NCBI GenBank assembly: GCA_900169975.1
Contig: LT827123.1
Coordinates: 124,001-188,000, forward strand
Direction: 5' to 3'
Length of the DNA: 64,000 bases
DNA from: Pseudoflavonifractor sp. Marseille-P3106
GTDB taxonomy: Bacteria; Bacillota; Clostridia; Oscillospirales; Oscillospiraceae
The notes under the pieces are model-generated. The model was not told where the DNA came from. It worked only from the letters and a program-made list of their open reading frames with translations, and searched no databases. The stretch's first letter is position 1, and the number at the start of each line of letters is the position of its first letter. Of this stretch, positions 10,206 to 25,782 are shown one piece after another. The position numbers and the translations under genes are program-made.

Positions 10206-10748
10206 ATGAAAAAGTGGGTTTGCTCTGTCTGCGGTTACGTTTACGAGGGTCCTGAGGCTCCTGATTTCTGCCCCATCTGCAAGGCTCCCAAGAGCAAGTT
10301 CGTCCTGCAGGGCGGCGATAAGGTGTGGGCTGCCGAGCACGTGGTAGGCGTGGCCAAGGGCGCTCCTGAAGAGATCCTCCAGGGCCTGCGTGAGAACTTC
10401 CAGGGCGAGTGCTCCGAGGTCGGCATGTATCTGGCCATGTCCCGTGTGGCTCATCGCGAGGGCTATCCCGAGATCGGCCTGTACTGGGAGAAGGCCGCTC
10501 TGGAGGAGGCCGAGCACGCTGCCAAGTTTGCTGAGCTGCTGGGTGAGGTGCTGACCGACTCTACCAAGAAGAACCTGGAGATGCGTGTCGATGCCGAGAA
10601 CGGCGCCACCATGGGCAAGTTTGAGCTGGCCAAGAAGGCCAAGGAGCTGAACCTGGACGCCATCCACGACACCGTCCATGAGATGGCCCGCGACGAGGCC
10701 CGCCACGGCAAGGCTTTCGAGGGCCTGCTGAAGCGTTACTTCGGCTAA
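10206..10748 (+). CDS. Reverse rubrerythrin (rubredoxin domain first)
   Basis: 180 residues. A short rubredoxin-like iron site (Cys6, Cys9, Cys22, Cys25) precedes a ferritin-like four-helix diiron domain with ExxH-type ligands ([17 protein letters not shown]). This order defines reverse rubrerythrins, which reduce hydrogen peroxide and oxygen in anaerobes using NAD(P)H-derived electrons. Codon use is strongly biased, suggesting high expression. The last 176 bases recur at 23334-23509, and the island in between inserted at this gene, so the 3' end here may be island-derived; the protein is intact. Confidence 0.93.
10573..10748 (+). repeat. Left copy of 176-bp direct repeat flanking the island (attL region)
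   Basis: This 3' part of the rubrerythrin gene matches 23334-23509 with about ten substitutions and no gaps; the longest identical run is 53 bases. Both copies are followed by related terminators. It is the expected product of integration into a gene's 3' end with restoration of the gene. Confidence 0.75.
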
Positions 10749-10788
10749 TCTATAACCGGATAAATCGCAACAATCAAGCACTTTTCGA

Positions 10789-10820
10789 GAGGGAATCGGG
10801 GAACCGGTTCCCTCTCTTTT
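10789..10820 (+). terminator. Terminator of rubrerythrin (left copy)
   Basis: GAGGGAATCGG, loop GGAA, CCGGTTCCCTC, then TCTTTTT. The same hairpin with small changes follows the right-hand rubrerythrin fragment at 23542-23571. Confidence 0.85.
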
Positions 10821-11145
10821 TGCGCTTGTGCCGGTTCATTGTGGATGTTTTTGTGGCATTTCTCTCTTTTCCACGACGGAAAACCTTCCACATGTGGATA
10901 TTCCGTTTTTTGCCCTATATCAAGCGATTTTCACCGCTTAATAACAAGTTTTTGAGAAAAACCATCAACTTTTATGAAGTTTTGGCCCAATCAGAAGGAA
11001 AAACAGAGACTTTTCATCGGCTGGAAGCCAAACAGAATCAAAATTGCCGGGTTTCTCTTCATTTCAGCAGCCCTTTGGGGCTGCTTTTTCATAGTTTGAT
11101 TATATCACATATCACTATTAAAGTACAGGTTTTCTCTTTGCCCAT
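10821..11145. other. AT-rich non-coding left end of the island
   Basis: No convincing gene. The frame that is open on the plus strand (10820-11215) has biased aromatic/basic composition, no ribosome site and crosses a terminator, so it is not called. The stretch holds the terminator at 11066-11089 and the promoter of the first cargo gene. Confidence 0.5.
11066..11089 (+). terminator. Small rho-independent terminator
   Basis: AGCAGCCC, loop TTTG, GGGCTGCT followed by TTTTC. No gene immediately upstream is supported, so it may end a short RNA or insulate the island. Confidence 0.6.
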
Positions 11146-11153
11146 GCTATACT
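11146..11153 (+). promoter_or_regulatory. Extended -10 promoter of the first cargo operon
   Basis: TGC followed by TATACT (an extended -10 TGnTATACT) about 80 bases before the ATG at 11234; no good -35 is present. Confidence 0.45.
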
Positions 11154-11233
11154 TAAAGCACAAAGAGGGACAGAGAACAAGAAAAAACAAAACCTCTCAA
11201 AACAAAAATAAATGAAATAAGGAGATTATCACC

Positions 11234-11668
11234 ATGAAAAAGAATGCTATCATCTACATCGACGATACCCACGCCCAGGTCACTAAGGCTTTCGAGAAGC
11301 AGGCCCGTATCTTCGGTACTCCCGAATACAGAGAGTGGAGAGCCTACCGTCAGGATTTCCCCAGCGCCCAGATGGTAACCAAGACCATCAAGCGGAAGAG
11401 CGACAAGCGCACCTACAAGAATCTGACCTACGATAACATGGAGCGATTCTTGACCATGCAGACCAACGGCCAGGAACTTATCAAGGAGTTCAACGACCAG
11501 AAGGCAATCGTTGCCATCCAGCAGAATCCCTATCGTGCGGTGCTGGCTTGGTTCCTTGCTAAGTTCCCCAAGTACGACAAGTACAAGGCGTTCTTTGCTG
11601 ACAACGGCGAGGCGGAAACCGCCCCCGAGAAAGTAACCGTTGGTTTCCCGCTTGCTGCTAATCAGTAA
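11234..11668 (+). CDS. Island cargo protein, paralogue of the gene at 11963
   Basis: 144 residues, soluble, basic. It shares with the protein at 11963-12403 a core around KNLTYDNME, then a Q-x-NPYRAVLAWFLAKFPKY segment, so the two arose by duplication. No characterised family is recognised. AAGGAG lies 13 bases before the ATG. Probably first in an operon with the next two genes. Confidence 0.75.
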   Translation: MKKNAIIYIDDTHAQVTKAFEKQARIFGTPEYREWRAYRQDFPSAQMVTKTIKRKSDKRTYKNLTYDNMERFLTMQTNGQELIKEFNDQKAIVAIQQNPYRAVLAWFLAKFPKYDKYKAFFADNGEAETAPEKVTVGFPLAANQ

Positions 11669-11717
11669 GCAATCTTTGAAGTACACTTCTCAAAAATCAG
11701 AAAAGGAGCTTGATACG

Positions 11718-11927
11718 ATGGAATTCACCCGTGACTACATGACCTATTACCTGCTGTCCTTCTGCAAGACCTACGACGAGCGCGACAAAGAGGAAGAGCG
11801 CCTGACGGCGCTGACCGACGAAGCGCTGGAAGCCGAGTTCACCGCCGAATACAACGAGCAGAAAGGCGCATGTCCCAACCCGCCGCTCTACGAAGGCAAT
11901 ATCCCTGACCTCTATATCGACTTTTAA
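11718..11927 (+). CDS. Small acidic hypothetical protein between the two paralogues
   Basis: 69 residues, rich in Glu/Asp (YDERDKEEERLTALTDEALEAEF), ending in DLYIDF. The start is placed at the ATG preceded by AAGGAG; a longer in-frame version overlapping the upstream gene region has no ribosome site. Its acidity opposite two basic neighbours suggests a possible partner, which is inference only. Confidence 0.65.
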   Translation: MEFTRDYMTYYLLSFCKTYDERDKEEERLTALTDEALEAEFTAEYNEQKGACPNPPLYEGNIPDLYIDF

Positions 11928-11962
11928 GACAAACCAGAATTGATTTTTAGGAGGAAATTACC

Positions 11963-12403
11963 ATGAAGAACACTTACAAAGTAGACTTTGTGAACAACAC
12001 TCTGACCATGACCAACGCGTTTGAGGACGCCGCCAGCAACCCCACTTCCCAGGAATACAAGCTGTTGCAGCAGATTCGCGCCGACTTCCCCGGCCTGACC
12101 ATCATCCGCAAGACCCGCCGCGCCCCCAAGAAGGCCCGCCACACCAAGAACCTGACCTACGCCAACATGGAGAAGTACATGAGCGTGTTTAAGAACTCCG
12201 TCGAGTTGCTGGCCCAGTTTGAGGTGGTCAAGGAGTGCTCCAAGCAGCAGCCCAGCCCCTACAAGTTTGTGCTGGATTGGTTCAAGGTCCAGTTCCCCAA
12301 CTACAAGGAGCAGCCCGATTTCAGCAACAATACCTCCAAGGTGATTGACCTGGAAACTATCAAGAAGAAGCAGGAAGAGAAGAAGCAGCAGGAGAGCGCT
12401 TGA
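11963..12403 (+). CDS. Island cargo protein, paralogue of the gene at 11234
   Basis: 146 residues. Shared core with the 11234 protein: RADFPGLTIIRKT, KNLTYANMEKYM and PYKFVLDWFKVQFPNY. The C-terminus is a charged Lys/Glu/Gln tail (likely helical). AGGAGG lies upstream. Function unknown. Confidence 0.75.
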   Translation: MKNTYKVDFVNNTLTMTNAFEDAASNPTSQEYKLLQQIRADFPGLTIIRKTRRAPKKARHTKNLTYANMEKYMSVFKNSVELLAQFEVVKECSKQQPSPYKFVLDWFKVQFPNYKEQPDFSNNTSKVIDLETIKKKQEEKKQQESA

Positions 12404-12424
12404 TAACAATGGAATACAAAATGA

Positions 12425-12457
12425 GAGAGGACGGTACTGCTGGTGTACCGTCCTCTC
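12425..12457 (+). terminator. Terminator of the paralogue operon
   Basis: 13-bp perfect stem (GAGAGGACGGTAC with its complement) and a seven-base loop, followed by an AT-rich but interrupted T tract. Confidence 0.7.
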
Positions 12458-12482
12458 CGCATTATTATAAACTATTTTTAGA

Positions 12483-12809
12483 TTAACTGGGACTAAACAT
12501 CATTAGAAGAAAGCCTATAACGAATACTACTGTTGCAATTATTGTTGCGGGGATAAAACTCTCTGTACCAATAGCGACCAATGCCACCAAATCGCCTATA
12601 ACCGAAACAAGCATTAGAATAATGCCAAACGTTTTCCCATTTCCGGCAAAAGTTTTGCTACTATCTTTTTCGGTTTTGTGTTCTACAACCTCTCTGGGGT
12701 CAAGCATGACCTTTTGGGGGGAGTCATTCGTAATGCCGACCTTGTTTCCGCACTTTTCGCAAAATGAGCTGCCATCGGCAATTTGAACTCCACATTTTTG
12801 ACAAAACAT
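12483..12809 (-). CDS. Zinc-ribbon membrane protein
   Basis: 108 residues. N-terminal double-zinc-ribbon knuckles (CQKCGVQIADGSSFCEKCGNK), a polar linker, then two hydrophobic segments (about 60-78 and 84-104) that should span the membrane. It follows another zinc-ribbon gene by four bases on the same strand. Proteins of this build are common and unassigned; a sensing or anchoring role is possible. Confidence 0.7.
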   Translation of the reverse strand: MFCQKCGVQIADGSSFCEKCGNKVGITNDSPQKVMLDPREVVEHKTEKDSSKTFAGNGKTFGIILMLVSVIGDLVALVAIGTESFIPATIIATVVFVIGFLLMMFSPS

Positions 12810-12813
12810 AACC

Positions 12814-13236
12814 TTACCTCAAACTCTTAAAACCGAGGATTTTCTTGCACATTTTAGTAGGAGTAATTGGAGTAATAAGCTGCGGTCCAGGAGATTGGAA
12901 AATGCAGTTGCCATCCGCTTCGACTTCTTTTATAACTGCACCATATCTCGTTTTTTTGGTCTGGCCGAGCATATTCCTTGTACTTGCCACAAGCTCACAG
13001 TAAACCTTTCCATCTTGGCCCTCTTCGTATGCCTCAAGTTCCCCAAAAGTAGGATTAACGCCTGTAATAAGAACAGTAGCACGCATGTAATTACACAGAG
13101 CGTCATAAATACATTCTTTTTTGCTCTTGACTATGAGTTCGGAAGTGCTATTCGTGATTTCACCTATTTTGTTCCCACATTTGGGACAAAAAGCTGCATT
13201 ATCATCAACTTGATTGCCACACTTTGAACAAAACAT
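12814..13236 (-). CDS. Zinc-ribbon protein with unassigned C-terminal domain
   Basis: 140 residues. CSKCGNQVDDNAAFCPKCGNK at the start is a zinc ribbon near-identical in layout to the downstream gene; residues 30-140 form a soluble domain of unknown family with alternating beta-like stretches. No membrane segment. Its ATG has AAAGAGAGG upstream. Confidence 0.7.
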   Translation of the reverse strand: MFCSKCGNQVDDNAAFCPKCGNKIGEITNSTSELIVKSKKECIYDALCNYMRATVLITGVNPTFGELEAYEEGQDGKVYCELVASTRNMLGQTKKTRYGAVIKEVEADGNCIFQSPGPQLITPITPTKMCKKILGFKSLR

Positions 13237-13341
13237 ATACTATTCCTCTCTTTCATCGTATCATGGATTTTGTCTGTGCAACTGTGATCTACTGCTCTAA
13301 TTATAACACGAATTTGATTGTATATCAATATTATATTGGAG

Positions 13342-13357
13342 TTTTAATCAATTAAAA
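13342..13357. promoter_or_regulatory. Palindromic AT-rich operator candidate
   Basis: TTTTAAT-CA-ATTAAAA, a perfect 7-bp inverted repeat 45 bases before the XRE gene and in the gap between divergent transcripts. Likely autoregulatory site for the XRE protein. Confidence 0.45.
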
Positions 13358-13401
13358 TTTAGGAATAATCCATATATCCTTGATTAAAAGGAGTAGAAGA
13401 T

Positions 13402-13755
13402 ATGGATTATAAATACAAGGTGGATTATCCACTGATAGCGAAGCGCATTAAAGCTGCCAGGAAGCAAGCCGGTTTAACTCAGGAACAGCTTGCCGAAAAG
13501 ATAGATATTTCAACAAATGCAGTTGCCAAACTGGAAAATAACCTTATGACAGCCAGCCTCCAAACATTGGTAAATATCGCCAATGTGCTGGGCATTGGTA
13601 TGGACTATCTTTTATGTGAAAGCTATCCTGCCGATCAAGAGAGCAACATTGATGTATTTCTGGACGGTCTAATTGATGGACTGTCTCAACAAGACAAGGA
13701 ATTTATTATTCATGTGATTAACGGCTTAAAACTCTACCATACCCGAAGCGGCTAA
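13402..13755 (+). CDS. XRE-family transcriptional regulator
   Basis: 117 residues. HTH_3 domain at about 10-66 (KRIKAARKQAGLTQEQLAEKI ... NAVAKLENN ... LGIGMDYLL) binds DNA as a dimer; the C-terminal 50 residues are helical and probably dimerise. Divergent from the zinc-ribbon pair, with which it may share regulation. AAGGAG precedes the start. Confidence 0.88.
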   Translation: MDYKYKVDYPLIAKRIKAARKQAGLTQEQLAEKIDISTNAVAKLENNLMTASLQTLVNIANVLGIGMDYLLCESYPADQESNIDVFLDGLIDGLSQQDKEFIIHVINGLKLYHTRSG

Positions 13756-13769
13756 AAGTGCAAAACTTA

Positions 13770-13803
13770 CCCTTGATGTAGCAACGCTGCATCAGGGGTT
13801 TTA
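13770..13803 (+). terminator. Terminator after the XRE gene
   Basis: CCCTTGATG pairs with CATCAGGGG, followed by TTTTA. Confidence 0.75.
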
Positions 13804-14230
13804 TCTTGACACCAACTTACACCGCCACCGCCGTTCTCGCCCGTGTTTCCCGTCTTTTTTCAGCGGTCGGGAAAAATGCCAAGAAAAGCGCACACGCGAA
13901 ATTACAAATGAACTATCCCGGAAGCACCCCCCACCCTGGTGTGACCGCAGCCTTCACCCGTTCCACATGGGGGCATCCTACACCTTCCCGATTACCTTCT
14001 TGCGAGGGAAATTCCTTCACCCGCTCGCAATCAGGGTTCCGCTCCAAGTTGAAACTACACTTTCAAAAAGCAACCTTCACCCGCAAAAGCTCAACTTCTG
14101 ACCAAAACCGACAACTCCGAAAGAACTTTTGATAAGTAGCAGCAACTTCAAAAAGAAACGCACCAACTTTCAAAAGAGAAACAACAACTTTGTTGCGGAA
14201 TAAGGCAAATGAGAGCGTTATGCCGTTTCT
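13804..14230. other. Intergenic stretch with short direct repeats, no supported gene
   Basis: A 108-codon plus-strand frame exists (13806-14132) but has no ribosome site and a low-complexity Ser/Thr/Arg composition, so it is not called. The stretch contains three copies of CCTTCACCCG at 13951, 14014 and 14074. Confidence 0.5.
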
Positions 14231-14258
14231 TTGCCATAAAAAAATTTTGTGTTATAAT
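14231..14258 (+). promoter_or_regulatory. Strong promoter before the structured RNA and amber-interrupted gene
   Basis: -35 TTGCCA, 16-base spacer of mostly A and T, -10 TATAAT. Transcription would start near 14265 and include the structured RNA as a 5' leader of about 185 bases. Confidence 0.7.
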
Positions 14259-14304
14259 AATTACAGAAAAAGGAAAAAGCTTTTGATGTATGGCTTCACT
14301 TGTA

Positions 14305-14426
14305 GACTTAAACAAGCAGTAGGATGAAGGCGCTGCGGCTTTCCATCTTGTAGAGCACTTCCGTTCTATGCTTCCGGGCAGCACCGCCAAGTGCTGGCAA
14401 CACGCTTCCTACTGTTTGCTTAAATC
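14305..14426 (+). ncRNA. Structured RNA leader, about 122 nt, unknown class
   Basis: The ends pair over 20 positions (14305-14324 with 14407-14426) with only two mismatches and a G-T wobble; inside, AGCACTT at 14354-14360 pairs with AAGTGCT at 14389-14395. No T-run follows, so it is not a terminator. It lies between a consensus promoter and the ribosome site of the next gene. It has no tRNA T-arm and no reverse transcriptase gene is nearby, so a tRNA or retron is not supported. It may be a cis-regulator, a processed small RNA or a partner of the downstream protein. Confidence 0.5.
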
Positions 14427-14449
14427 TATAAAAGGAGGAAGCACACAAG

Positions 14450-16075
14450 ATGGAAAAATAGAACCTGTCGCCAGCAGGGGATAGCGAAGAAACTTTGCAA
14501 AAGCTCCAACAATGTATGGAGAAATATAACCTAAACCATCAATGGTTGAATTATATAGATAATCCACAAGAAATAGTAGATGCAGCTGAAACATATGAAT
14601 TTTTTCAAAGTAGAAATCCATATTTATTAAATTCTGCTCAGCGACCAGAAGATAGGCTTTATTGGGCCTGTCATACGAAACTTTTTGTAAAATATTTCAT
14701 TAAATTTGCGCGCGGAATGGTTTCGCCACGGGTCGATGAATGGTCAGATAATGATTTGGAAGAATACTATAAAACTGTTATTAAAGAATATTCTATTGAC
14801 AGTCGATACTTGCCGTATTTTATGGAAGAGGGCTTTCAGTTTTATTGGTTTATTCAAGCATGGAATGAGGCAGCCGCTATCGAATACCCCATGTTTCCTC
14901 ATTATCAGTCGCCAGGAGATTGGATAATAGAAGAATATGATCTGACTAAGCCCACCAAAAAGTAGATTGAAAAAGAAAATGAAGCCAAAGCAGGGTATTT
15001 GGTTGCAGAAGAAGAGCGGATTACCGCGCTGGAAGAAACCACTGCCGCTGAACCGACCTTCCGCGGCCTGCCCATTGCCTGGGAGAATGTCACAACGGAA
15101 GAGGACGGCAAGCAAAAGACAGCACATTGGATTGCTTGGAATGGTAGCCGCTCGAAACGAGAGGATTTTTTCAAACTGGCTTTCCCCGACTGCTACAATA
15201 AGATCAAAAAACGAGTGAAGTTCTTGGGACAAGCAGCGGATAATGTACTGTGGCTGACCGGTGGGCAGCGTACCAAGCTCATGTATGAGATTTTAGCAGC
15301 AAAGTATGAACTGGTGGATGTGGATGAAGTAGATAATACGACGCTGACCCTTCTTTGCTGGAAGGAAGAGGATAACAAAACCGCTGATGATCTGTTGTCC
15401 CGCTTGCGCTGGCCGAATGGTTTAGCCAAGCTCGTGACCTTTGGCGTGGGAATGAAGCTGGACGCCGCCGCGCAACATACATGGTGCTATTCTGTGGACT
15501 ATCAGGAGGACAAAGCAATCTTTGAAGGGCAGTCAATGACCTGGGAGTGCTGGCAAAAATAGCTGATTGAAATTCTTGACCGCTGCCGAAATGGTCGCAT
15601 TCCCTACAATAAGGTAAAGAAACAGATCTTCCCTGCATTGTACTACCAGGATGGTAAGCGCCTCACCCTTGCAGCAGCAGATCGAAAAGCAATAACGGAA
15701 TGGGTGGGTGATTACCTTGTGAGCGGTTCCGCTCCATTTCCATTGTCCGGGGCAATATCCGCCGCCGACTTCAAGTTTGTGATTGACTACAATACAGATG
15801 TTGAGTTGGTGGACAGCCGGGATTTGAAAGACCCCGACGAGATGGCAAAATACAACCGCGAAACCAACGCCGCCAGAAACAAGGAGAAGGGCAAAAATAA
15901 GGTAGCCGCTCGCGCCAGAAAGACCTTGCCGGACGGGGATTTTACCAGGGATGATTTGAAGGCGCTGGGCTACGGCCACAATGCCATTTCCAACTTGCTC
16001 CGGGACAAGCTGATTGTAGACACCAAACGCCGGACGCCGGAACGCAAGTTCATTTACCGAAAGAATTTCAAGTGA
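14450..16075 (+). CDS. 541-residue protein of unknown function with three in-frame TAG codons
   Basis: One frame runs from an ATG with AGGAGG 11 bases upstream to TGA at 16073-16075, broken only by TAG at codons 4, 172 and 371 (14459, 14963, 15560). Coding character continues on both sides of each TAG, without shift, and no TAA or TGA occurs. The contexts MEK-x-NLSPAG, PTKK-x-IEKENE and CWQK-x-LIEIL all suit Gln. The first third is AT-rich, the rest near 50 percent GC, so the gene may be a fusion. The C-terminal 60 residues (TRDDLKALGYGHNAISNLLRD) look like a winged helix. No family recognised. The alternative is a pseudogene with three amber mutations. Confidence 0.6.
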
Positions 16076-16085
16076 AACTGCCGCC

Positions 16086-16146
16086 GATGTACCACACCCC
16101 GAGGGGGATAAAAGAAAAGTATATTCCCCACGGGGTATGGTACATC
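16086..16146. repeat. Large inverted repeat between the two amber-interrupted genes
   Basis: GATGTACCA at 16086-16094 pairs with TGGTACATC at 16138-16146, and inside ACCCCG with CGGGGT and GGGG with CCCC. The stem is far longer than a usual terminator and has no T-run. It may stabilise or process the shared transcript. Confidence 0.6.
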
Positions 16147-16202
16147 TACCGCTTCCACACTTGAAAGTGTATATTCAAAATTATCAGAAGGAGGAAACAG
16201 CT

Positions 16203-16535
16203 ATGTTTCGTGAACTACTTTAGATTTTGCAGGATTTTGAGCGCCAGGATAGCGCAAACCGTCTTACCTGGATAGAGGCCGCACTTGCGGCGCAGAGCGG
16301 TCCCGCTCCAAGTGCTTATGAAAATTACAAGCGGGCAAAGGCGGAGTGGCAGGACGAACAGAGCCGCCGCCAGCGCTTCTATGATTTTCTCATGCAGCGG
16401 CGCGATCTGGTGGACGCTGTGGCAAAAAGCGTGATTGACAGCAGCACTAAGGAGATCACCGCCAAGGCCGAGCAGGAGCTTTCCCAGGCGTTCCATGAGA
16501 AGTTGGATAAGACGGTCAAGTATTATTTCAAATAA
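16203..16535 (+). CDS. Small coiled-coil-like protein with an in-frame TAG at codon 7
   Basis: 110 residues if TAG is decoded. ATG has AAGGAGG eight bases upstream, then M-F-R-E-L-L-TAG-I-L-Q-D-F-E-R-Q-D and an open frame to TAA. Helical, charged, with a YKRAKAEWQDEQSRRQRF stretch likely to form a coiled coil. Gln at the TAG would continue an amphipathic helix. Without readthrough only a TTG with no ribosome site could start the protein. Unknown family; probably co-transcribed with the upstream amber gene. Confidence 0.6.
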
Positions 16536-16540
16536 ATGAA

Positions 16541-16589
16541 AAAAGTCGGAGGAAGTTATTGAAACTTCTCTCCGACTTCTCCTTTTTGT
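16541..16589 (+). terminator. Terminator of the amber-gene pair
   Basis: AAGTCGGAG and GAAG pair with CTTC and CTCCGACTT around a short loop, followed by CTCCTTTTT. Confidence 0.8.
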
Positions 16590-16590
16590 A

Positions 16591-16722
16591 TCAAAACTTT
16601 TTGGGAGTTGTGTCTTTCTGCGGCTTTTCTCCCTCTTCTTCATCCTTTTGACCGGGCTTCTTCTCCCAGCCTAAAATCTCTTCCATGATAAGGGCAAGGG
16701 GCAGGTCTGTGTCTCCGAGCAT
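16591..16722 (-). CDS. Very small acidic/basic protein, 43 residues
   Basis: Starts MLGDTDLPLALIMEEILG and ends with a Lys/Glu-rich tail finishing PKKF. The ATG has a good GGGAGG seven bases upstream, and the frame is closed by TGA just beyond the terminator of the opposite strand. Too short to assign; a small regulator or accessory peptide is possible. Confidence 0.5.
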   Translation of the reverse strand: MLGDTDLPLALIMEEILGWEKKPGQKDEEEGEKPQKDTTPKKF

Positions 16723-16745
16723 GGTGTAACCTCCCTTAGAGCTGT

Positions 16746-16783
16746 CGCGTCGTGGCGAAGGTCACGACGCGCTTCCTGTTTTT
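16746..16783 (+). terminator. Second plus-strand hairpin with T-run
   Basis: CGCGTCGTG pairs with CACGACGCG across an eight-base loop; CTTCCTG and seven T follow. It lies in the promoter region of the small minus-strand gene and could stop readthrough from the amber-gene operon. Confidence 0.6.
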
Positions 16784-16848
16784 TTGCGCTGCGCTGGATT
16801 TTCGTACTACTGTAATCAACATCAGTAGTCTTTCGTAGCTCCTATAAA

Positions 16849-17070
16849 TTACCTATCCCCTGGGGTCTCCTTGACGTATTCCAGCAAATCACCGGGTTGA
16901 CACCCCAGAAGGTCGCAAATGGTTTCAAGCGTGGCCCACGACACCATTTGACCGCTGCGGATTTTTTGCAGCATGGCCTCCCCCATGATCTTATCTTTCC
17001 GAATCCTGGTAGTATTGTACCCTGCTTCTTTCAGGGCTGCAATTACATCGACTTTGTATCTGATCGGCAT
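16849..17070 (-). CDS. Small XRE/Cro-like regulator
   Basis: 73 residues: a single HTH of the Cro/HTH_26 type (VIAALKEAGYNTTRIRKDKIMGE ... WATLETICDLLGCQPGDLLEY). The ATG at 17070 has GGAGG six bases upstream; a longer version to 17118 lacks a ribosome site. Divergent from the 17281 gene, with three operator-like inverted repeats between, so it probably represses itself and the 17281 operon. Confidence 0.85.
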   Translation of the reverse strand: MPIRYKVDVIAALKEAGYNTTRIRKDKIMGEAMLQKIRSGQMVSWATLETICDLLGCQPGDLLEYVKETPGDR

Positions 17071-17138
17071 GTTTGGCCTCCATTCCGGGGCACGCCAAAA
17101 ATTGCGCGCCTCTTCCATTGTCCTTATTCTAACACGGA

Positions 17139-17230
17139 ATTACACTCTTTTCAAGTGTTAATATTACACATAAATTAAGTGTAATTTCTGGGTATTTTGC
17201 GAATTAAATTACACTTAAAAAAGGTGTAAT
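17139..17230. promoter_or_regulatory. Array of three operator-like inverted repeats
   Basis: Three copies of ATTACAC-N9-GTGTAAT: imperfect at 17139-17162, perfect at 17163-17185 and 17208-17230. They fill the gap between the divergent XRE gene and 17281, in the manner of a phage-like switch. The nearby XRE protein is the likely ligand. Confidence 0.7.
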
Positions 17231-17280
17231 ATGTAATCAGTTAAGGGGAACACCCCAATAAAAGAAAAGGAGAACTAAAC

Positions 17281-17559
17281 ATGAGTAAGAACGAATTAGT
17301 AGCCAAGATCGAGGCCCTGAACGAGTGGGAGGCCGTTATCGAAGAGGCCAAGGCGGAGGCCGAAGCCATCCGGGACAGTATCAAGGCCGAAATGATGGAG
17401 CGCGACACCGAAGAGCTGGCCGCTGGAAAGTACATCGTCCGCTGGACTTCCGTTCTCTCCAACCGCTTCGACACTACCGCTTTCAAAAAGGTGTACGGCG
17501 ACCTCTACAAAGCCTTCACCAAGCAGAGCCAGAGCCGCCGCTTTACTATCAGCGCATAA
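17281..17559 (+). CDS. Island/phage-type hypothetical protein
   Basis: 92 residues, the first half a charged helix rich in Glu/Ala/Lys (likely coiled coil), the second half including YIVRWTSVLSNRFDTTAFKK and ending QSRRFTISA. This kind of protein is common in Firmicute phages and ICEs (seen as YqaJ/recombination-adjacent or host-nuclease-inhibitor-like), but no function is assigned. AAGGAG lies upstream; expression is probably under the operator array. Confidence 0.7.
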   Translation: MSKNELVAKIEALNEWEAVIEEAKAEAEAIRDSIKAEMMERDTEELAAGKYIVRWTSVLSNRFDTTAFKKVYGDLYKAFTKQSQSRRFTISA

Positions 17560-17570
17560 AGAAAAGCCCC

Positions 17571-17661
17571 TTGCCTGACTGCCGACCAAAGCTTACAGGC
17601 AAAGGACTTCCACCCAAACCGAACCGGGGAGGGCAAGAACATTATAGCTTGCCCTCTCCCC
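17571..17661 (+). other. Two hairpins in the transcript between 17281 and 17689 genes
   Basis: TTGCCTG/CAGGCAA spans 17571-17602 and GGGGA-GGGCAAG with its partner spans 17626-17661. Neither has a T-run. They may tune expression of the downstream protease gene. Confidence 0.4.
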
Positions 17662-17688
17662 AAAATCAAGAACAGGAGAGATAAAGAC

Positions 17689-18336
17689 ATGAAGGAACTG
17701 ACAAGCTATAACCGCGTGGCCGGGTATCTCAACAAAGTGTTCGATCTGCTGAACACGGAATTCTTTGAAGGTGCACTTTCAAGGCCCACCATCACCATCC
17801 AGTCCACGCCCCGCGCCTACGGCCACTTCTCCCTGCGGGAAGATACCTGGGTTTCCAAGTTGGGCGGCACCCATGAAATCAATATCGGGGCCGGAACGCT
17901 GGCCCGCCCCATTGAGGAAGTGGCGGCGACCCTGCTTCACGAAATGGTTCACTACTACAACTTTGAGAACGGCGTGCAGGATTGCAGCCGGGGCAACACC
18001 TACCACAACCGGAAGTTCAAAGCGGCGGCGGAGGCCCACGGCCTGACCGTCACCCACAGCGATAAATACGGATGGTCACACACGGCTCCCGGCGAGGCGC
18101 TGCTTGACTTCGTATTGGAGAACGGCTTGACCGACATTCTCATAAACCGCAACGAGTTTGCCGGGTTCCAGGTCACCGGCACCGGGACGCACAGCGGCAC
18201 AGGAACCACCCCGCCGCCGCGCCCGTCCAGCACGAGAAAGTATATCTGCCCCTGCTGCGGGAATTCCGTTCGGGCCACCAAAGCGGTGAATATCGCTTGC
18301 CTGGACTGCAACGAGCGGATGGTGCTGGCCGGTTGA
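17689..18336 (+). CDS. SprT-like zinc metalloprotease-fold protein
   Basis: 215 residues. SprT-like domain at about 10-135 with HEMVH at 84-88 as the zinc-binding motif and a later TVTHSDKYGW; the C-terminus has a zinc ribbon (CPCCGNSV ... CLDCNERM). SprT/Spartan proteins act on DNA-protein crosslinks or in DNA processing; many mobile elements carry a copy. Residues 160-190 are a Gly/Thr/Pro linker. AGGAGAGAT precedes the start. Confidence 0.85.
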   Translation: MKELTSYNRVAGYLNKVFDLLNTEFFEGALSRPTITIQSTPRAYGHFSLREDTWVSKLGGTHEINIGAGTLARPIEEVAATLLHEMVHYYNFENGVQDCSRGNTYHNRKFKAAAEAHGLTVTHSDKYGWSHTAPGEALLDFVLENGLTDILINRNEFAGFQVTGTGTHSGTGTTPPPRPSSTRKYICPCCGNSVRATKAVNIACLDCNERMVLAG

Positions 18337-18375
18337 CAGGGAAGGGCGGGGAGAAATACCCGCCCACTTCCCGAA

Positions 18376-18401
18376 GTTCGTATAAGTCCAGAAATACGAA
18401 C
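18376..18401. repeat. 8-bp inverted repeat with 10-bp spacer before the second recombinase
   Basis: GTTCGTAT - 10 bases - ATACGAAC, perfect. It lies 96 bases before the recombinase gene, together with two copies of CGAACTTTT (about 18450 and 18472). It could be a recombinase core site or an operator. Confidence 0.4.
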
Positions 18402-18496
18402 ACCAAAACCCAGCAATCACGGGACTTTCCAGCCGCCGCCCCCAATACACGAACTTTTCCGCCGTTAAAAACGAACTTTTGACCATGGAGGCCACC

Positions 18497-19060
18497 ATGA
18501 ACAAGAAAACAAAGACGCTCACCACCGAGCAATACAAAGAGATCATACAGACAATGAAGGAGGGATTCAGCGGTTGCCGCCCCAATGAGCGGATCGCCAC
18601 CGCCCTGGTGCTGGAAGGGAATTTAGGCTTGCGGATCAGCGACATATTGAAGCTGCGGCCCCGCGACATTGTCCGGGATGGGGACAGATACCGCCTGGAA
18701 ATCACCGAGCAGAAAACCGGCAAGCGCCGGGTGTTCACCGTTCCGCTTGTTATTCAACAATACATAGAGAATTATTGCTTGCGGAACAGTATAGACAGAA
18801 ACGCCCTGATATTCCCCATCACTGAGAGGGCCATACAGAAGCAGCTCCATATCGTGTGCGATTACCTTGGCTTTGAGGGGATCAGCACTCACAGTTTCCG
18901 CAAGTGGTACGCCACGGAGATATACAAGGCAAACGGCTATGACATAGCGCTGGTACAGCGGCTATTACAGCATAGCTCCGCCGCCGTCACACAGCGGTAT
19001 ATCGGCATTGAGCCACAGCGGATAGAGGCCGCGATACAAAACCACGCACAGCTTATTTGA
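18497..19060 (+). CDS. Minimal tyrosine recombinase (catalytic domain only)
   Basis: 187 residues, half the length of a standard integrase. Catalytic residues are present: Arg in LGLRISDIL, HSFRKWY (His and Arg), LLQHSSAAVTQRY with the His and the Tyr nucleophile. The core-binding domain is missing, as in small Xer-like recombinases of mobile elements. GGAGG five bases before this ATG fixes the start over two upstream in-frame options. It may resolve or invert DNA within the island, while the 403-aa integrase does excision. Confidence 0.85.
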   Translation: MNKKTKTLTTEQYKEIIQTMKEGFSGCRPNERIATALVLEGNLGLRISDILKLRPRDIVRDGDRYRLEITEQKTGKRRVFTVPLVIQQYIENYCLRNSIDRNALIFPITERAIQKQLHIVCDYLGFEGISTHSFRKWYATEIYKANGYDIALVQRLLQHSSAAVTQRYIGIEPQRIEAAIQNHAQLI

Positions 19061-19166
19061 CAGCCTGGGGCCGCTCGACACGAGCGGCCCCATTGCTCTT
19101 TGCTGCTGCCTTTTTCCTGATTTTGTGATACACTGGATATAAGACCGGGAAAGCGAGGCAGCGCAA

Positions 19167-20107
19167 ATGGCAAAGTCAGAAAACCAAAAAGTGAAAACAC
19201 TCTATGTTGCTAAATACTTTTTGGAGAACTCCGACGAGAACCACCCCGTCACCGCCGGGGATGTGGTGGACTATCTGAAAGACGAGTGCGGGATTGAGGC
19301 GGAGCGCCGCGCCATCTACCGGGATATTGCCGCTCTGCGGGATGTATTCGGGATGGATATTGAGGGCGGACAGGGAGGAAAATACCGGTTGCTGTCCCGT
19401 CAATTTGAGTTCGACGATTTGCGGCTGCTGGCCGAGTGTGTCCATGCGGCAAAGTTTATATCCGCCCGACAAGCGAAAGATTTGGTGGACACGCTGGGCG
19501 AGTTTTGCAGCACCTATCAGGCGGAGCAGCTTCAACGGGAAGTGTTCCTGTGTGACCGGGTGAAAACAACTATTTGAAATATACACTTCAAGACGGAATA
19601 ACACAGGTGGAGCGTCGCAAAGGGGCCACTTATAAAGTCAGTCCCTACAAACTGTTGATAAACGATGGGAACTATTATCTGCTGGGTTATGGGCCTGCTG
19701 GCAATAGAAATGCACCCCAAATCGCTACCTATCGCATTGACCGTATGAAGGAAGTAAAACTTCTTAATGAACCGCGAGAGGGAGCAGAAGAGTTTGCAAA
19801 AATCGAAGTTGAAAGCTATACCCGCCGCGTGTTCTCCATGTTTGGCGGGGAGCAGAAGCGTGTCAGTATCCGCTTTCGTAACGACTTACTCGATACGGCT
19901 ATTGAGCGATTTGGAACAGGCAAAGATGTGTTTTATAGACCTGATGACAAAAAGAATTTTGTTGTAACCGCTGATGTGGAAATAAGCGATCAATTTTTTG
20001 CGTGGGTGTGTGGATTTGGAAATCGAGCTAAAATTCTTGCTACTACTGATGTGGTAAAAAGTATGGCTAAATTCCTTGACAATATTTGTAGTTTATATAA
20101 AGAGTAA
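19167..20107 (+). pseudogene. WYL-domain transcriptional regulator broken by internal deletion
   Basis: The first part (19167-19577) is a DeoR/HTH_11-like DNA-binding domain typical of YafY regulators, ending at DRVKTT before TGA. The second part (19574-20107) resumes in another frame at LKYTLQDGITQVERRKG and carries the WYL core and C-terminal extension (YLLGYGPAGN ... YRIDRMKEV). Compared with intact relatives, about 25 residues plus a frame change are missing at the joint. The halves may be expressed separately, but a decayed gene is likelier. It lies directly before the HEPN-like gene, a position where WYL repressors of defence genes are often found. Confidence 0.7.
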
Positions 20108-20137
20108 TCCGAATTACATACAAAGGAGGCCTGTAGT

Positions 20138-21904
20138 ATGATTAGGAACAAGGTGCCCTGTTTTGAGATTGACAAAAGTTTTAATGGTATTCGTTTTTTT
20201 GCAGAATCAGCTGAAGAATTGTTGTTCTACTTTAGTCATGACTCATTTAAGGTTCCAACACTAAATTTTCATTTCCTGTGCTTTGAGGCTCTGGATGTAA
20301 TACGTAAAATTGAATCAGTCCTACTCGATAAAGGAAATATTGTACCTATTTTACAAGAATTTTTATATTCATATAAAAATGATCCCATTGTTAGGTACTT
20401 TTACGGGGAAGATATTAATAACCTATTTGCAATAAAAGATGCAGAAGGAAAATACAAATTAGTCCTTAAAGAAATTATGCAAAATCCTACTAGTGACTCA
20501 TCAATTCAAAAATTCAAAAAGTGCATACTATTTTTGAAAGATGACTTAGGAAGAAAGTCACGTTATTACAATCATGGTGTATCACAAATTCGTGCTTTCA
20601 TCGGTAAAGAAAATTTAGATTTTTCAGAGTTGGATTTACTACAACAGTATACTAAGATCGTTCTGACTGAGTTAATTAATACTGGATATAGTCAGGAATA
20701 TATTTATACTTCGGTAAAAAATATCTTTTTCTCGGAGCAAACTCCGGTAAAAAATGCAGAGGAATCTTTTGACAAATTTATCTCGCTTTTCACGTTAAAT
20801 GAGAAAGAATATATTGTCTATTTACCTATGAAAAATTATAGAATCAAGGACGAACTGATACCATTTACGGGGTTAGATATTGCTGAAAACGTCTTTGAAA
20901 TGTTTGATAACACATGTTCCCATATTATAAAATTCAAAAGAGAGGCAATGGACCCAGAAGGCGCAAAGACTCAAGCAGTAGCACTGATAGATTTTTGCTT
21001 GTCGGTTACGCAGTATTGTCAACACAGTAAACGTGGCTATTCATTTAAAGAAGCTGAGGTTGTTGATTTAGAGTCTAAAACGGTATATAGCTTAAAAGCA
21101 TTGGCCTCACCAATTTCTAGGCAAAAGAGGACACCTACCGATGTTAAAAAAATAGTTCATGCTTGTTTTGAATTGGATTCTGGTATATTTAGTGCAATTG
21201 GATTACATGCATCGGCATTTGGAACTAAAGACTTGAAAAATCAACTGCTAAATTTATGGACTGCCATGGAAGTATTAATTCCTGTTGAACAGCATGGTAA
21301 CTTGAGTAAGATAAATCAAATATCAAATTCTGCTGCCACAATTCTTTGCTCTAACTATATAAATATGCTATTGGTACAATTAGATAAGCAAATTTCTAGT
21401 CGCATATTAGATACGTATGAACAGCTATTAAGAAAGATTGATGATACAACTCTTAATAGGACTGAAAAACTGCTGGCCATTTTAGTTTTATCTGAATATG
21501 ATGATATATTCTCTGAGCTTATGTCCGAACTTGAGTTTACTCCACTCCTTGTGTTTAGAATGCAGCAATACAAAAATGTTTTATCGATGGGAGCAAGTAT
21601 TAAGAACTTCTATGAACGTCATTCTAGGCGTTTGACGTGGCAAATTATGCGTATTTATAGAAATCGAAATATGATAGTGCACAATGGAAGAACTTTGCCT
21701 TTCCTAGAGGTAATATTGCAAAATCTTCATTTTTACATTGATACCATTGTTGACACATTTTGTACGTTAAATGATGAGGAATTTACTGATTCAAGTTCAA
21801 TAATTATGCATCTAATAAAGAATGAGCAATTATATCTATCAAAATTAAATGAAGTAACGACATTTTCTAAAGATAACTTTGTTTCCTGTATTTTAGGCAA
21901 GTAA
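20138..21904 (+). CDS. Large HEPN-like protein, candidate anti-phage RNase
   Basis: 588 residues, very AT-rich codons unlike the host. The C-terminal third contains a helical segment LLNLWTAMEVLIPV and then IYRNRNMIVHNG with Arg510-x4-His515, the R-x4-6-H signature of HEPN ribonucleases; this pairing resembles ApeA-like HEPN proteins. The N-terminal 350 residues have no recognised domain and could sense infection. No membrane segment. AAGGAGG lies upstream; the gene follows the broken WYL regulator by 30 bases. Function is inferred from motif and context only. Confidence 0.6.
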   Translation: MIRNKVPCFEIDKSFNGIRFFAESAEELLFYFSHDSFKVPTLNFHFLCFEALDVIRKIESVLLDKGNIVPILQEFLYSYKNDPIVRYFYGEDINNLFAIKDAEGKYKLVLKEIMQNPTSDSSIQKFKKCILFLKDDLGRKSRYYNHGVSQIRAFIGKENLDFSELDLLQQYTKIVLTELINTGYSQEYIYTSVKNIFFSEQTPVKNAEESFDKFISLFTLNEKEYIVYLPMKNYRIKDELIPFTGLDIAENVFEMFDNTCSHIIKFKREAMDPEGAKTQAVALIDFCLSVTQYCQHSKRGYSFKEAEVVDLESKTVYSLKALASPISRQKRTPTDVKKIVHACFELDSGIFSAIGLHASAFGTKDLKNQLLNLWTAMEVLIPVEQHGNLSKINQISNSAATILCSNYINMLLVQLDKQISSRILDTYEQLLRKIDDTTLNRTEKLLAILVLSEYDDIFSELMSELEFTPLLVFRMQQYKNVLSMGASIKNFYERHSRRLTWQIMRIYRNRNMIVHNGRTLPFLEVILQNLHFYIDTIVDTFCTLNDEEFTDSSSIIMHLIKNEQLYLSKLNEVTTFSKDNFVSCILGK

Positions 21905-21987
21905 ATATTTATACTAATATTTTAAATAGTTTATGATTGAGAACGATGACTCTTTGATTTTCTTTTATTCTTGTTAAAAGTTCTTGG

Positions 21988-23199
21988 CTATAACTGATTT
22001 AAATTGCTTTTTAAAATATCTATTCCTGTCCGGGACAACGCAATATAATATCGCTGTGTAACCTGGATGTTGCCATGCCCCATCTGATTGCAGAGAAGGT
22101 GGGTGGGGGTATTCATTTCCGCCATCATGGTTCCGTATGTATGCCGCAAGTAGTGGTATTTGAACATGATGTGATACTTACTTTTGAGTTCGCGCGAGTG
22201 GTATTTCATGGAGTTTACCGTCTGGATTTTTCCATCGGGCAGACAGTTCACAAGCTCCGTGGAAGGAATCTTCTTACCGCCTAAGTCCTCTATGATACGC
22301 TGGTTCTGTTCTCTCAGGGCGGCGTATTGGAGCATATCCTGTTCCCGCCGCGCCGCCAGCTCTTGAAAATACACTTTCAATTTGTCGCACATGTAAATGG
22401 TGCGTTTGGCGTTGCGGGTTTTCAGCGACACCAGCTTGATAAGGCCGTTCTGGTATTGCATTTGGCCGTCAATCAAAATGGTTCCGTTGACCACATCGAC
22501 ATTTGACCATTTGAGGCCGTAACACTCATTGATACGAAGGCCGCAATACCGTCCCAGCAAGTACGCCGTTTCCGCATTGGTTCCATAGAAGTAATCATCC
22601 AATACGGCAAGCTCTTCTTTGCTAAACGCCACAATATCCAGATCATCGTCCGTTTTCAGTTTTGGCATGTGAATTTTGGTGTCCTTGTTGATACAGAGCT
22701 TGTTGTAGGAATCCACATCCAGGTAGTTTCGGGAATACGCCTGTCCAAAGAGCAAGTAGAACTGTTTTAGAAAACTCTCCACATAGCGATAGGAGAGGCC
22801 ACGCCCACAATAAAGCTCCGTCAGATAGTCCACCACCTCCGCCGCGCTGACCTCATCCACGAAGCGGCCGCCGAACCGAGCGGAAAGGTGGTTCTTCCAC
22901 AAGCTGTCCTGCTTGCGGATGGTATTGTAGGCCCGGTCACTACGGCCCGTGGTACAGTATTCTTGATAGACCTCCTGAATGGTTTTCCGTACCGTGGGTT
23001 TGGGCTTGCGGGAGTTCTGGGCGTTGTCAATGGCAACTTGCCGCGCCCTGGTTGCCGCTCGCCGACTTTTGAATGGATTGCCGTTTTCGTCCTTACTGAC
23101 CTGTTTCGATACTCTCTTGCCGCTTTGCGTGTAGGTGTAGCGAAATGCCCACATGCCGCTTCCAAGCTGGAATACACTTGCGCTGTTTTCGGTTCCCAT
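21988..23199 (-). CDS. int: Tyrosine-type integrase of the island
   Basis: 403 residues. N-terminal arm-binding domain (GSGMWAFRYTYTQSGKRVSKQ), core-binding SAM-like domain at about 75-165, catalytic domain at 190-400 with Arg (GRYCGLRINE), HYLRHTYG and GHGNIQVTQRYY. It drives integration and excision at the rubrerythrin repeat. The start at 23199 is preferred over 23256 because GGGAGG lies eight bases upstream. It ends in TAG, read here as a true stop. It faces inward with its 5' end toward attR, the usual arrangement. Confidence 0.93.
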   Translation of the reverse strand: MGTENSASVFQLGSGMWAFRYTYTQSGKRVSKQVSKDENGNPFKSRRAATRARQVAIDNAQNSRKPKPTVRKTIQEVYQEYCTTGRSDRAYNTIRKQDSLWKNHLSARFGGRFVDEVSAAEVVDYLTELYCGRGLSYRYVESFLKQFYLLFGQAYSRNYLDVDSYNKLCINKDTKIHMPKLKTDDDLDIVAFSKEELAVLDDYFYGTNAETAYLLGRYCGLRINECYGLKWSNVDVVNGTILIDGQMQYQNGLIKLVSLKTRNAKRTIYMCDKLKVYFQELAARREQDMLQYAALREQNQRIIEDLGGKKIPSTELVNCLPDGKIQTVNSMKYHSRELKSKYHIMFKYHYLRHTYGTMMAEMNTPTHLLCNQMGHGNIQVTQRYYIALSRTGIDILKSNLNQL

Positions 23200-23218
23200 G
23201 TTTCTTGCCTCCCAAAGT

Positions 23219-23280
23219 GTGCAATTTGGGGTGCAATTTCTGATGTATTCCAGCATGTGAAAAGTTGCACATGTGCAACT
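23219..23280. promoter_or_regulatory. Integrase upstream region with repeats and an 18-bp palindrome
   Basis: Two direct TGCAATTT copies about 11 bases apart and AGTTGCACA-TGTGCAACT (23263-23280, perfect palindrome) lie between integrase and the attR-side repeat. They fit arm-type binding sites or an operator of the integrase gene. Confidence 0.45.
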
Positions 23281-23333
23281 GATTTTGTGTGATTGAAAGG
23301 GTTCCCGGCGCCGAACGGCGCAGCCGTTTGGCT

Positions 23334-23509
23334 ACCTGGAGCTGCGCGTCGATGCCGAGAACGGCGCCACCGCCGGCAAGTTTGACCTGGCCAAGAAGGC
23401 CAAGGAGCTGAACCTGGACGCCATCCACGACACCGTCCACGAGATGGCCCGCGACGAGGCCCGCCACGGCAAGGCTTTTGAGGGCCTGCTGAACCGCTAC
23501 TTCGGCTAA
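23334..23509 (+). pseudogene. Displaced 3' end of rubrerythrin (attR-side repeat)
   Basis: Encodes the last 58 residues of a reverse rubrerythrin ([14 protein letters not shown] ... LLNRYFG) with no start codon and an in-frame stop 40 bases upstream. It matches 10573-10748 with about ten substitutions and no gaps. It is probably the original chromosomal end of the gene, pushed away by the island; an older tandem paralogue truncated by insertion is possible. Confidence 0.8.
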
Positions 23510-23541
23510 GACGGCAAGGTCCAAAACGCAAGACTTTTCAA

Positions 23542-24810: not shown

Positions 24811-25782
24811 ATGGAGACTTTTTCCTGGAAAAATCGGAATGTTTTTGTGACGGGGATCACAGGCTTTTTGGGCAGCCATCTTGCCCGGGTGCTGGTGGCC
24901 CGGGGCGCCAATGTGGTGGGCCTGATCCGGGACCGGGTGCCCCGTTCTTTCCTGTATGAAGATCAGACAGACCGGCGGGTGACCCTTGTGGAGGGCAATC
25001 TGGAGGACCTGGCCCTTTTGGAGCGGGCGCTGGGGGAGCATGAGATCGACACCGTATTCCATGTGGCGGCCCAAGCCATTGTGGGTGTGGCCAACAGAAA
25101 TCCGATCTCCACCTTTCGGGCCAACATCGAGGGGACATGGAATCTGCTGGAGGCCTGCCGCCGCAGTCCGCTGGTTCGCCGCGTGGTGGTCGCCTCCAGC
25201 GACAAGGCCTATGGAGACCAGCCCGTACTGCCCTACGACGAGGCCATGCCCCTGCGGGGGCGGCACCCCTATGACGTGTCGAAAAGCTGTGCCGATCTGA
25301 TCGCGCAGGCCTATCACACGTCCTATGGACTGCCTGTCTGCATCACCCGGTGCGGGAATCTTTACGGCCCGGGGGATTTGAATTTTAACCGCATCATTCC
25401 ACAGACCATTCGCAGTGTGCAGAATGGGGAAAGCCCTGTGATCCGCAGCGACGGCACACTGATCCGGGACTATTTTTATGTGGAGGACGCCGTCAGCGCC
25501 TATCTGATGCTGGCCGAACAGATCGAAACACTTGATCTGGGCGGCGAGGCGTTTAATTTCAGCAATGAGGCGCAGATGACGGTTCGGGAGATCGTGGCCC
25601 GGATCCTGATGCTGATGCACAGCGATCTGCCGGTCACCGTCCTCAATGAGGCCGGCAATGAGATCCGACACCAGTATCTCTCTGCGGAGAAGGCCCGGTC
25701 TATCCTGGGGTGGAGGCCCGCGTACACGGTGGAGGAGGGGCTGGCCCGGACCATCCCGTGGTATCAGACTTTTTTGACCTAG
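24811..25782 (+). CDS. SDR-family sugar nucleotide 4,6-dehydratase (RfbG/CDP-glucose-dehydratase-like)
   Basis: 323 residues. Extended short-chain dehydrogenase: NAD-binding [13 protein letters not shown] near the N-terminus, then [20 protein letters not shown] and the catalytic YDVSK pair (Tyr and Lys). Coupled to an RfbF-like gene, so the substrate is probably CDP-glucose, but other NDP-hexoses are possible. Two ATGs nine bases apart are candidates; the second is spaced better from GGAGG. Ends with TAG, showing that the host reads TAG as stop. Confidence 0.85.

Follow-up and report, generated by a model that had tools for sequence, protein, structure and literature searches.

The window, a 64-kb stretch of DNA (G000:C17:124001-188000) from a 3.1-Mb genome assembled in 20 contigs (completeness 99.15%), carries two adjacent genes, A and B, in which TAG behaves as a Gln codon. 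From comparison of homologous sequences we infer that TAG is very probably decoded as Gln at some stage, and this use appears to be confined to the A/B replication-type module of an integrative element (Table 1). An amber recoding module had been proposed for this DNA in an earlier note. The part of that proposal which stands is that TAG represents Gln in two adjacent genes; the parallel with phages that bring their own suppressor tRNA is not supported.

Table 1. Coordinates of the element, its insertion site and its main features within the window
Feature	Position	Strand	Remark
Rubrerythrin gene, intact, insertion site	10206..10748	+	
Integrative element, ~12.6 kb	10749..23511		right end repeats rubrerythrin 3' end, about 23334-23511
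Structured 5' leader directly upstream of A	14298..14432	+	nearly identical within the close subfamily
Gene A, 541 residues, TAG codons counted	14450..16075	+	replication-type protein (putative); C-terminal winged-helix-like region
Long hairpin between A and B	16079..16155	+	candidate origin or regulatory stem
Gene B, 110 residues, TAG codon counted	16203..16535	+	matches no known family
Cro/C1-type HTH regulator, adjoins B, opposite strand	16849..17118	-	
92-residue phage-type gene	17281..17559	+	phrog_6244; also C-terminal part of RecE-like family
SprT-like gene	17689..18336	+	phrog_6361
Second, short integrase-like recombinase	18479..19060	+	phrog_216
Tyrosine integrase of the element, right end, ends in TAG	21988..23256	-	

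The frame of A has 542 codons including its TGA, no internal TAA or TGA, and TAG at codons 4 (14459-14461), 172 (14963-14965) and 371 (15560-15562). In B, TAG stands at codon 7 (16221-16223) of a 111-codon frame, the terminal TAA counted. Sites of AGGAGG type are located 5' of both ATGs. The frames, the TAG positions and the strong ribosome sites had been reported in the earlier note and are correct on re-reading. Ordinary decoding halts A after MEK and B after MFRELL, within the first codons, so that in a normal cell neither protein would come from the integrated copy. The early TAG is a shared feature of the five close relatives (window, G074, G206, L069 and L070). Codon 4 of A is TAG in 5/5, and in B a single TAG occupies codon 7 or codon 10; the position of the Gln in B shifts and the early TAG is kept. 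In distant relatives TAG lies deeper within A and is mostly missing from B, and two of the 15 non-redundant A sequences contain no TAG. The named strain Flavonifractor plautii ATCC 29863 has the module too; its A gene contains three TAGs and its B gene one. Gene calling of the ordinary kind splits TAG-bearing genes such as these into fragments.

The residue represented by TAG was inferred from a set of 15 non-redundant A sequences, in which L077 was kept with its short frame and L078, G349, G308, G342 and second copies of the same records were left out. TAG occurs in 13 of the 15, in 22 cells distributed over nine columns. A column-wise likelihood that treats the sequences without phylogeny correction, and that counts the codon-4 column (facing two misaligned Cys only) among the nine, is best for Gln, with Glu 7.7 nats and Lys 11.1 nats worse. 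Run on residues already known, the same inference was correct in 94-100% of control draws. Two columns are otherwise invariant. The GGQR column (TAG in L070 and L073) has Gln in 13/13 of the other sequences and the YYQ column (TAG in L165) has Gln in 14/14. The DEQDK column (TAG in L159) has eight Gln and four Glu among 14 sequences, the FAA-TAG column has three Gln and six Glu among 14, and the MWK-TAG column has three Gln among 12. The exceptions are the AFP-TAG column, which faces six Asp, one Gln and one Gly, and TAG371, which faces eight Pro, three Lys, one Ser and one Arg. Examination of the residues opposite the TAGs, suggested in the earlier note as a check, favors Gln when all columns are taken together.

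Exchange between TAG and the Gln codons is also seen directly. TAG172 of A faces CAG in G074, and the window has CAG where G074 has TAG. TAG7 of B faces CAA, and across the two B sites of the window and G074 the opposite codons are CAA and CAG. The claim that all four contexts suit Gln is consequently borne out for TAG172 and for TAG7 of B and fails for TAG371; TAG4 is uninformative, since it is TAG in all five sequences with that N-terminus. UAG is also the pyrrolysine codon, and TAG might be read as that residue. The informative sites carry Gln in homologues, Lys scores 11.1 nats below Gln, and a CUA tRNA is absent among the inspected tRNA matches; pyrrolysine has next to no probability here.

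Both genes are under purifying selection. Relative to the counterparts in G074, a genome of a second genus, A has a dN/dS of 0.22 at a dS of 0.80 and B has a dN/dS of 0.24. The segments of A beginning at TAG4, TAG172 and TAG371 have dN/dS values of 0.28, 0.10 and 0.32, respectively. A and its G074 counterpart both have 542 codons including the stop, and they differ by in-frame gaps with no frameshift. In a gene-wise count over 1,312 aligned codons of B (13/16 loci), the only internal stops were six TAGs, and 17 internal TAGs were counted in A. The same count gave no stop in 15,339 aligned codons for thirteen other element queries and none in 1,671 codons of rubrerythrin. These totals are to be read with the provisos that paralogous queries overlap, so that some codons are counted twice, that homologous loci are not independent, and that positions near alignment ends, including five TAGs at codon 4 of A, lie outside the counted range. 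The count for A also has three TAA and one TGA, which by the author's reading fall where the fused-primase query crosses the gap upstream of the A core ORF. Homologue frames are bounded by TAA or TGA by construction; the statement that TAG is the only internal stop is therefore based on coverage of the core and on the gene-wise count. Two broader scans were set aside. A codon-usage scan for read-through frames over 84 kb gave 9, 10 and 8 candidates for TAG, TAA and TGA, respectively, with no TAG excess, and was too noisy. Of two all-frame comparisons across loci, one was swamped by out-of-frame matches and the other gave 45 TAG and 77 TAA sites with no clean control; the gene-wise count replaced them.

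The earlier note had named a pseudogene with repeated CAG-to-TAG changes as the main alternative, in which A and B are decaying genes no longer in use. The TAG371 and AFP-TAG columns, which are not mainly Gln, fit such decay, as do family members that are truncated or fragmentary (L077, G349 and G308). L077/G172 is cut by TGA and followed by unrelated sequence, the frame of L078/G030 is open at the contig end, and each of G349, G308 and G342 is a fragment or noise. Relaxed selection, mixed stops or frameshifts would be expected of a pseudogene. What is found is selective constraint downstream of the TAGs in A, TAG without TAA or TGA in the core and in B, turnover of Gln sites between TAG and CAG or CAA, and intact neighboring element genes. 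Neither ordinary decay nor a random placement of nonsense positions is seen in the homologues. On this comparative evidence A and B are not plain pseudogenes, and decay is quite improbable.

TAG is also found at the ends of frames around the module. The window contains ORFs ending in TAG at 25782, 27973 and 41450. In 6 of 12 loci the gene for the HTH regulator next to B terminates with TAG, with at least two different 3' ends, and TAG closes 2/62 of the other element genes (A and B omitted, their ends being defined by TAA or TGA). The difference between the HTH and the other gene ends has a Fisher p of 2e-5, a value computed with 2/78 that ignores shared ancestry. Since TAG ends other genes of the element, constant full suppression is argued against.

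The region satisfies the description of an integrative element, with an integrase and duplicated ends of the insertion site. G074 has a related element at the same rubrerythrin gene. Rubrerythrin sequence borders the element at one end in L069, L070 and L076; in the window and in the L071 and G284 elements the 3' end of the gene is found on both sides. Other relatives lie near tRNA-Pro(GGG), and the L074 element lies between two copies of tRNA-Pro. Frequent companions of the module, not all present in each locus, are two related small genes (144 and 146 aa), the HTH regulator, the 92-aa gene, the SprT gene, a WYL regulator and the integrase. Relaxase, terminase, capsid, packaging or capsid-redirecting genes were not recognized among the proteins scanned, which covered small ORFs in part. 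The WYL regulator of the window (19167-20107) is split into two overlapping ORFs. Its halves are about 100 nt apart in several relatives, a stretch that may have been deleted from the window copy. Neither Pfam nor PADLOC, at the thresholds applied, gives a match for a 588-residue A+T-rich ORF at 20138-21904, and the compared elements contain no relative of it; it is probably a cargo gene.

Two structured regions flank the coding sequences of the module. The hairpin between A and B is long and strong with an A-rich loop, and is present in 10/10 loci folded, although the arm sequences differ (L069-L076 and L067 among the loci). It is far stronger than shuffled sequences in 7/7 tested loci (z -4.4 to -10.4). 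It is possibly a replication origin or a regulatory stem. The leader of A has a three-armed fold (z -3.9) and is nearly identical in five related elements, with one change from G-U to G-C that keeps the pairing. The leader was considered as a missing tRNA and rejected, because its fold has no CUA loop and it is absent from distant elements.

A is most likely a replication protein, judging from its domain content and its gene partners. Its conserved core of about 340 residues was found, in the genomes searched, only in the Flavonifractor bacterial family, and its C-terminus has a weak winged-helix match. In L069, L070 and G206 a region with primase-like (AEP-like) motifs recognized by eye precedes the core in a single fused protein; in G206 this region has a PriCT_2 match below the Pfam cut-off. 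The gene directly upstream of A in G370 has PriCT_2 above the cut-off (E 2.4e-5), and for the gene upstream of A in L071, likeness to a primase of DnaG type is judged solely by eye (Toprim E 0.086). The A core is thus tied to two primase types, DnaG-like (by eye) and PriCT_2, or fused to a primase-like region (L071:6748-7989; L246:8981-10000), and this variety of partners is module swapping. The window and G074 versions of A differ at the N-terminus from the primase-fused versions. The AlphaFold model of A has a pLDDT of 64.9 and that of the L070 relative 54.8. Foldseek gave no match for either model at E<=0.001, and neither protein has a sequence match among solved structures. Family searches with B found no known family above cut-off. 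An ORF occupies the place of B, 3' of A, in 9/9 loci viewed, and B-type queries match 13/16 loci.

Homologues of A occur in 5/200 genomes of the family and in 14/400 of a larger family set. They occur in 6/394 genomes of the order, and outside the family the match is to the C-terminal part only. Ten loci were found among assembled genome contigs, and none in plasmids, phages or viral contigs. Relatives are present in several genera of the family, including F. plautii.

The source of the decoding was sought among tRNA genes. ARAGORN finds no tRNA in the window and none in the G074 element stretches. On the ten genome-contig loci it calls five tRNAs, none of them CUA. A CUA tRNA on the same replicon, a criterion for genetic code 15, is consequently lacking for the window and for the G074 element. 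At the level of whole genomes, no CUA anticodon occurs in 71/71 matches to RF00005 at E<=0.001 in the window's own genome G000 (74 at E<=10, with three weak ones outside the inspection), in 53/53 at E<=0.001 in G074, in 57/57 at E<=10 in G206, which is a single contig, or in 52/52 at E<=0.001 in G370, also a single contig (58 at E<=10, with six weak ones outside the inspection). Anticodons were assigned by ARAGORN, and by eye for a few matches without an ARAGORN call. An absent CUA tRNA had been listed in the earlier note as counting against recoding, and this absence is what was found among the matches inspected; a phage-like suppressor tRNA carried by the element itself finds no support in the window, in the G074 element or in the inspected tRNAs of four host genomes. 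A pattern for CUA tRNAs matched in 115/150 family genomes, the letters being mostly those of tRNA-Arg(UCU). Fifteen doubtful matches were fetched and contain no CUA tRNA; two are Arg(UCU), one is Ser(GCU) and twelve have no tRNA call, among them one cut Arg-like tRNA and one tmRNA-like end (by eye). The doubtful match of the window's own genome is on a 6-kb contig, where ARAGORN calls Glu and Lys tRNAs only. In the same genome, a tRNA-like gene lies at L044:99-166 (G000:C20:482998-483065); its anticodon comprises two bases (cc) and is undefined.

A Gln-like CUA tRNA is present in a ten-tRNA array on a 139.7-kb viral contig (L241:1695-1767, minus strand), the sole contig with the exact pattern. 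It resembles 60 phage records. Since these are mostly from phages of proteobacteria, likeness of the tRNA provides no link to the hosts of A and B.

These observations suggest a mechanism in which A and B would be the replication module of a family of integrative elements in the Flavonifractor bacterial family, with TAG as Gln in both genes. Full A and B proteins would appear only while a Gln-inserting amber suppressor is active, and the TAGs would form a gate tying replication of the element to the suppressor state. With early TAGs in both genes and insertion of Gln, the two proteins would appear together, as a gate would behave. The two A sequences without TAG and the distant B genes, mostly without TAG, indicate that such a gate would not be universal. 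The chain up to a conditional amber gate, with the source of the suppressor left open, is moderately probable. Because no CUA tRNA is seen in the element or in the inspected host sets, we infer that the suppressor would most likely be supplied in trans and conditionally, for example by a phage that encodes a CUA tRNA of Gln type. The viral contig with a Gln-like CUA tRNA makes such a source plausible, and if TAG serves as Gln the chance of a trans suppressor is somewhat short of even.

The main rival of the conditional gate is near-cognate reading, in which the host tRNA-Gln(CUG) would read UAG by first-position wobble, so that small amounts of the complete A and B proteins would be present at all times and may suffice for a replication protein. 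G000, G206 and G370 each carry a single gene for tRNA-Gln(CUG), and no CUA gene was seen in any of the three. Near-cognate reading would insert Gln without a helper, and TAG but no TAA is seen. The analogy is with yeast, where PMC3664417 describes tRNA-Gln(CUG) with anticodon-stem changes that reads UAG by first-base wobble at 4-9%. The anticodon stem of the G000 tRNA-Gln(CUG), folded by hand, has a G27-U43 end pair; however, this tRNA pairs along the whole stem. Moreover, with up to three TAGs per gene, 4-9% at each would result in a yield of <0.1%. The sup70 alleles of yeast are similar in that they would put Gln at UAG without a CUA anticodon, and different in being laboratory mutants of low efficiency, whereas the A/B case is natural, bacterial and putative. 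Near-cognate reading is overall unlikely, though of appreciable weight, and it gains a little if TAG is granted to serve as Gln.

A dedicated decoder may instead have escaped the search, as an odd or split tRNA or in a genome part missing from the assemblies. tRNA models can overlook unusual tRNAs. The window's own assembly is fragmented and slightly incomplete, and the weak matches in G000 and G370 lie outside the inspection. On the other side, every match down to E<=10 in the single contig of G206 is without CUA, and the structured leader, the sole element-borne RNA candidate seen, has neither a CUA loop nor a counterpart in distant elements. A missed decoder is improbable as a whole; if TAG serves as Gln, an unrecognized dedicated tRNA or another device has a rather small chance.

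A more specific form of the conditional gate is that of a sensor, in which TAG would keep the replication genes shut in normal cells, and only a Gln-inserting CUA tRNA from a second replicon, for instance an amber-recoded phage, would open them. This sensor reading is tentative and somewhat doubtful. If this is true, a change of genetic code would set the time at which the element replicates, and recoding in trans would be a signal between mobile elements. More generally, amber-Gln use is found here in chromosomal elements of gut bacteria, and ordinary rules give no reading of UAG by the tRNAs inspected in the host genomes, two single-contig ones included. The hosts would have an unrecognized route for decoding UAG, or else the element would depend on a suppressor from another genome; both would be new. 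A literature search, with most subscription papers outside its coverage, found no account of amber codons in integrative elements or satellites or of a two-gene amber-Gln module without a CUA tRNA.

Integrative mobilizable elements (IMEs) and PICI-type islands of Firmicutes are about 12 kb in length and have a tyrosine integrase, insertion at a gene 3' end, regulators and primase-type replication genes. The A/B element is like them in all of these features. It is unlike them in having no recognized relaxase, terminase or capsid-related gene among the proteins scanned, and in having amber codons in its replication module. Amber codons recoded to Gln have been described in phages that supply the tRNA themselves. 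In code-15 gut phages, such as the crAss-like phages, TAG exchanges with CAG and CAA at Gln sites and occurs in part of the genes, according to PMC9523058 and PMC10879173. A and B are similar, with the same exchange at Gln sites, TAG in part of the genes and a gut habitat. They differ from the code-15 phages in belonging to an integrated bacterial element, in being two genes only, and in the absence of a CUA tRNA from the element and from the inspected host tRNAs. Another near parallel is given by tRNAs with 4-bp anticodon stems that read UGA (PMC13092985). The closest bacterial comparison is with Paenibacillus, for which PMC7918605 describes conserved in-frame TAG or CAG at the same orthologue site, purifying selection around it and an excess in the mobilome class. 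A and B share TAG and CAG at the same orthologue site, purifying selection and a setting of mobile DNA, and they differ in having many TAG sites in a single two-gene module, turnover of these sites and Gln as the probable residue.
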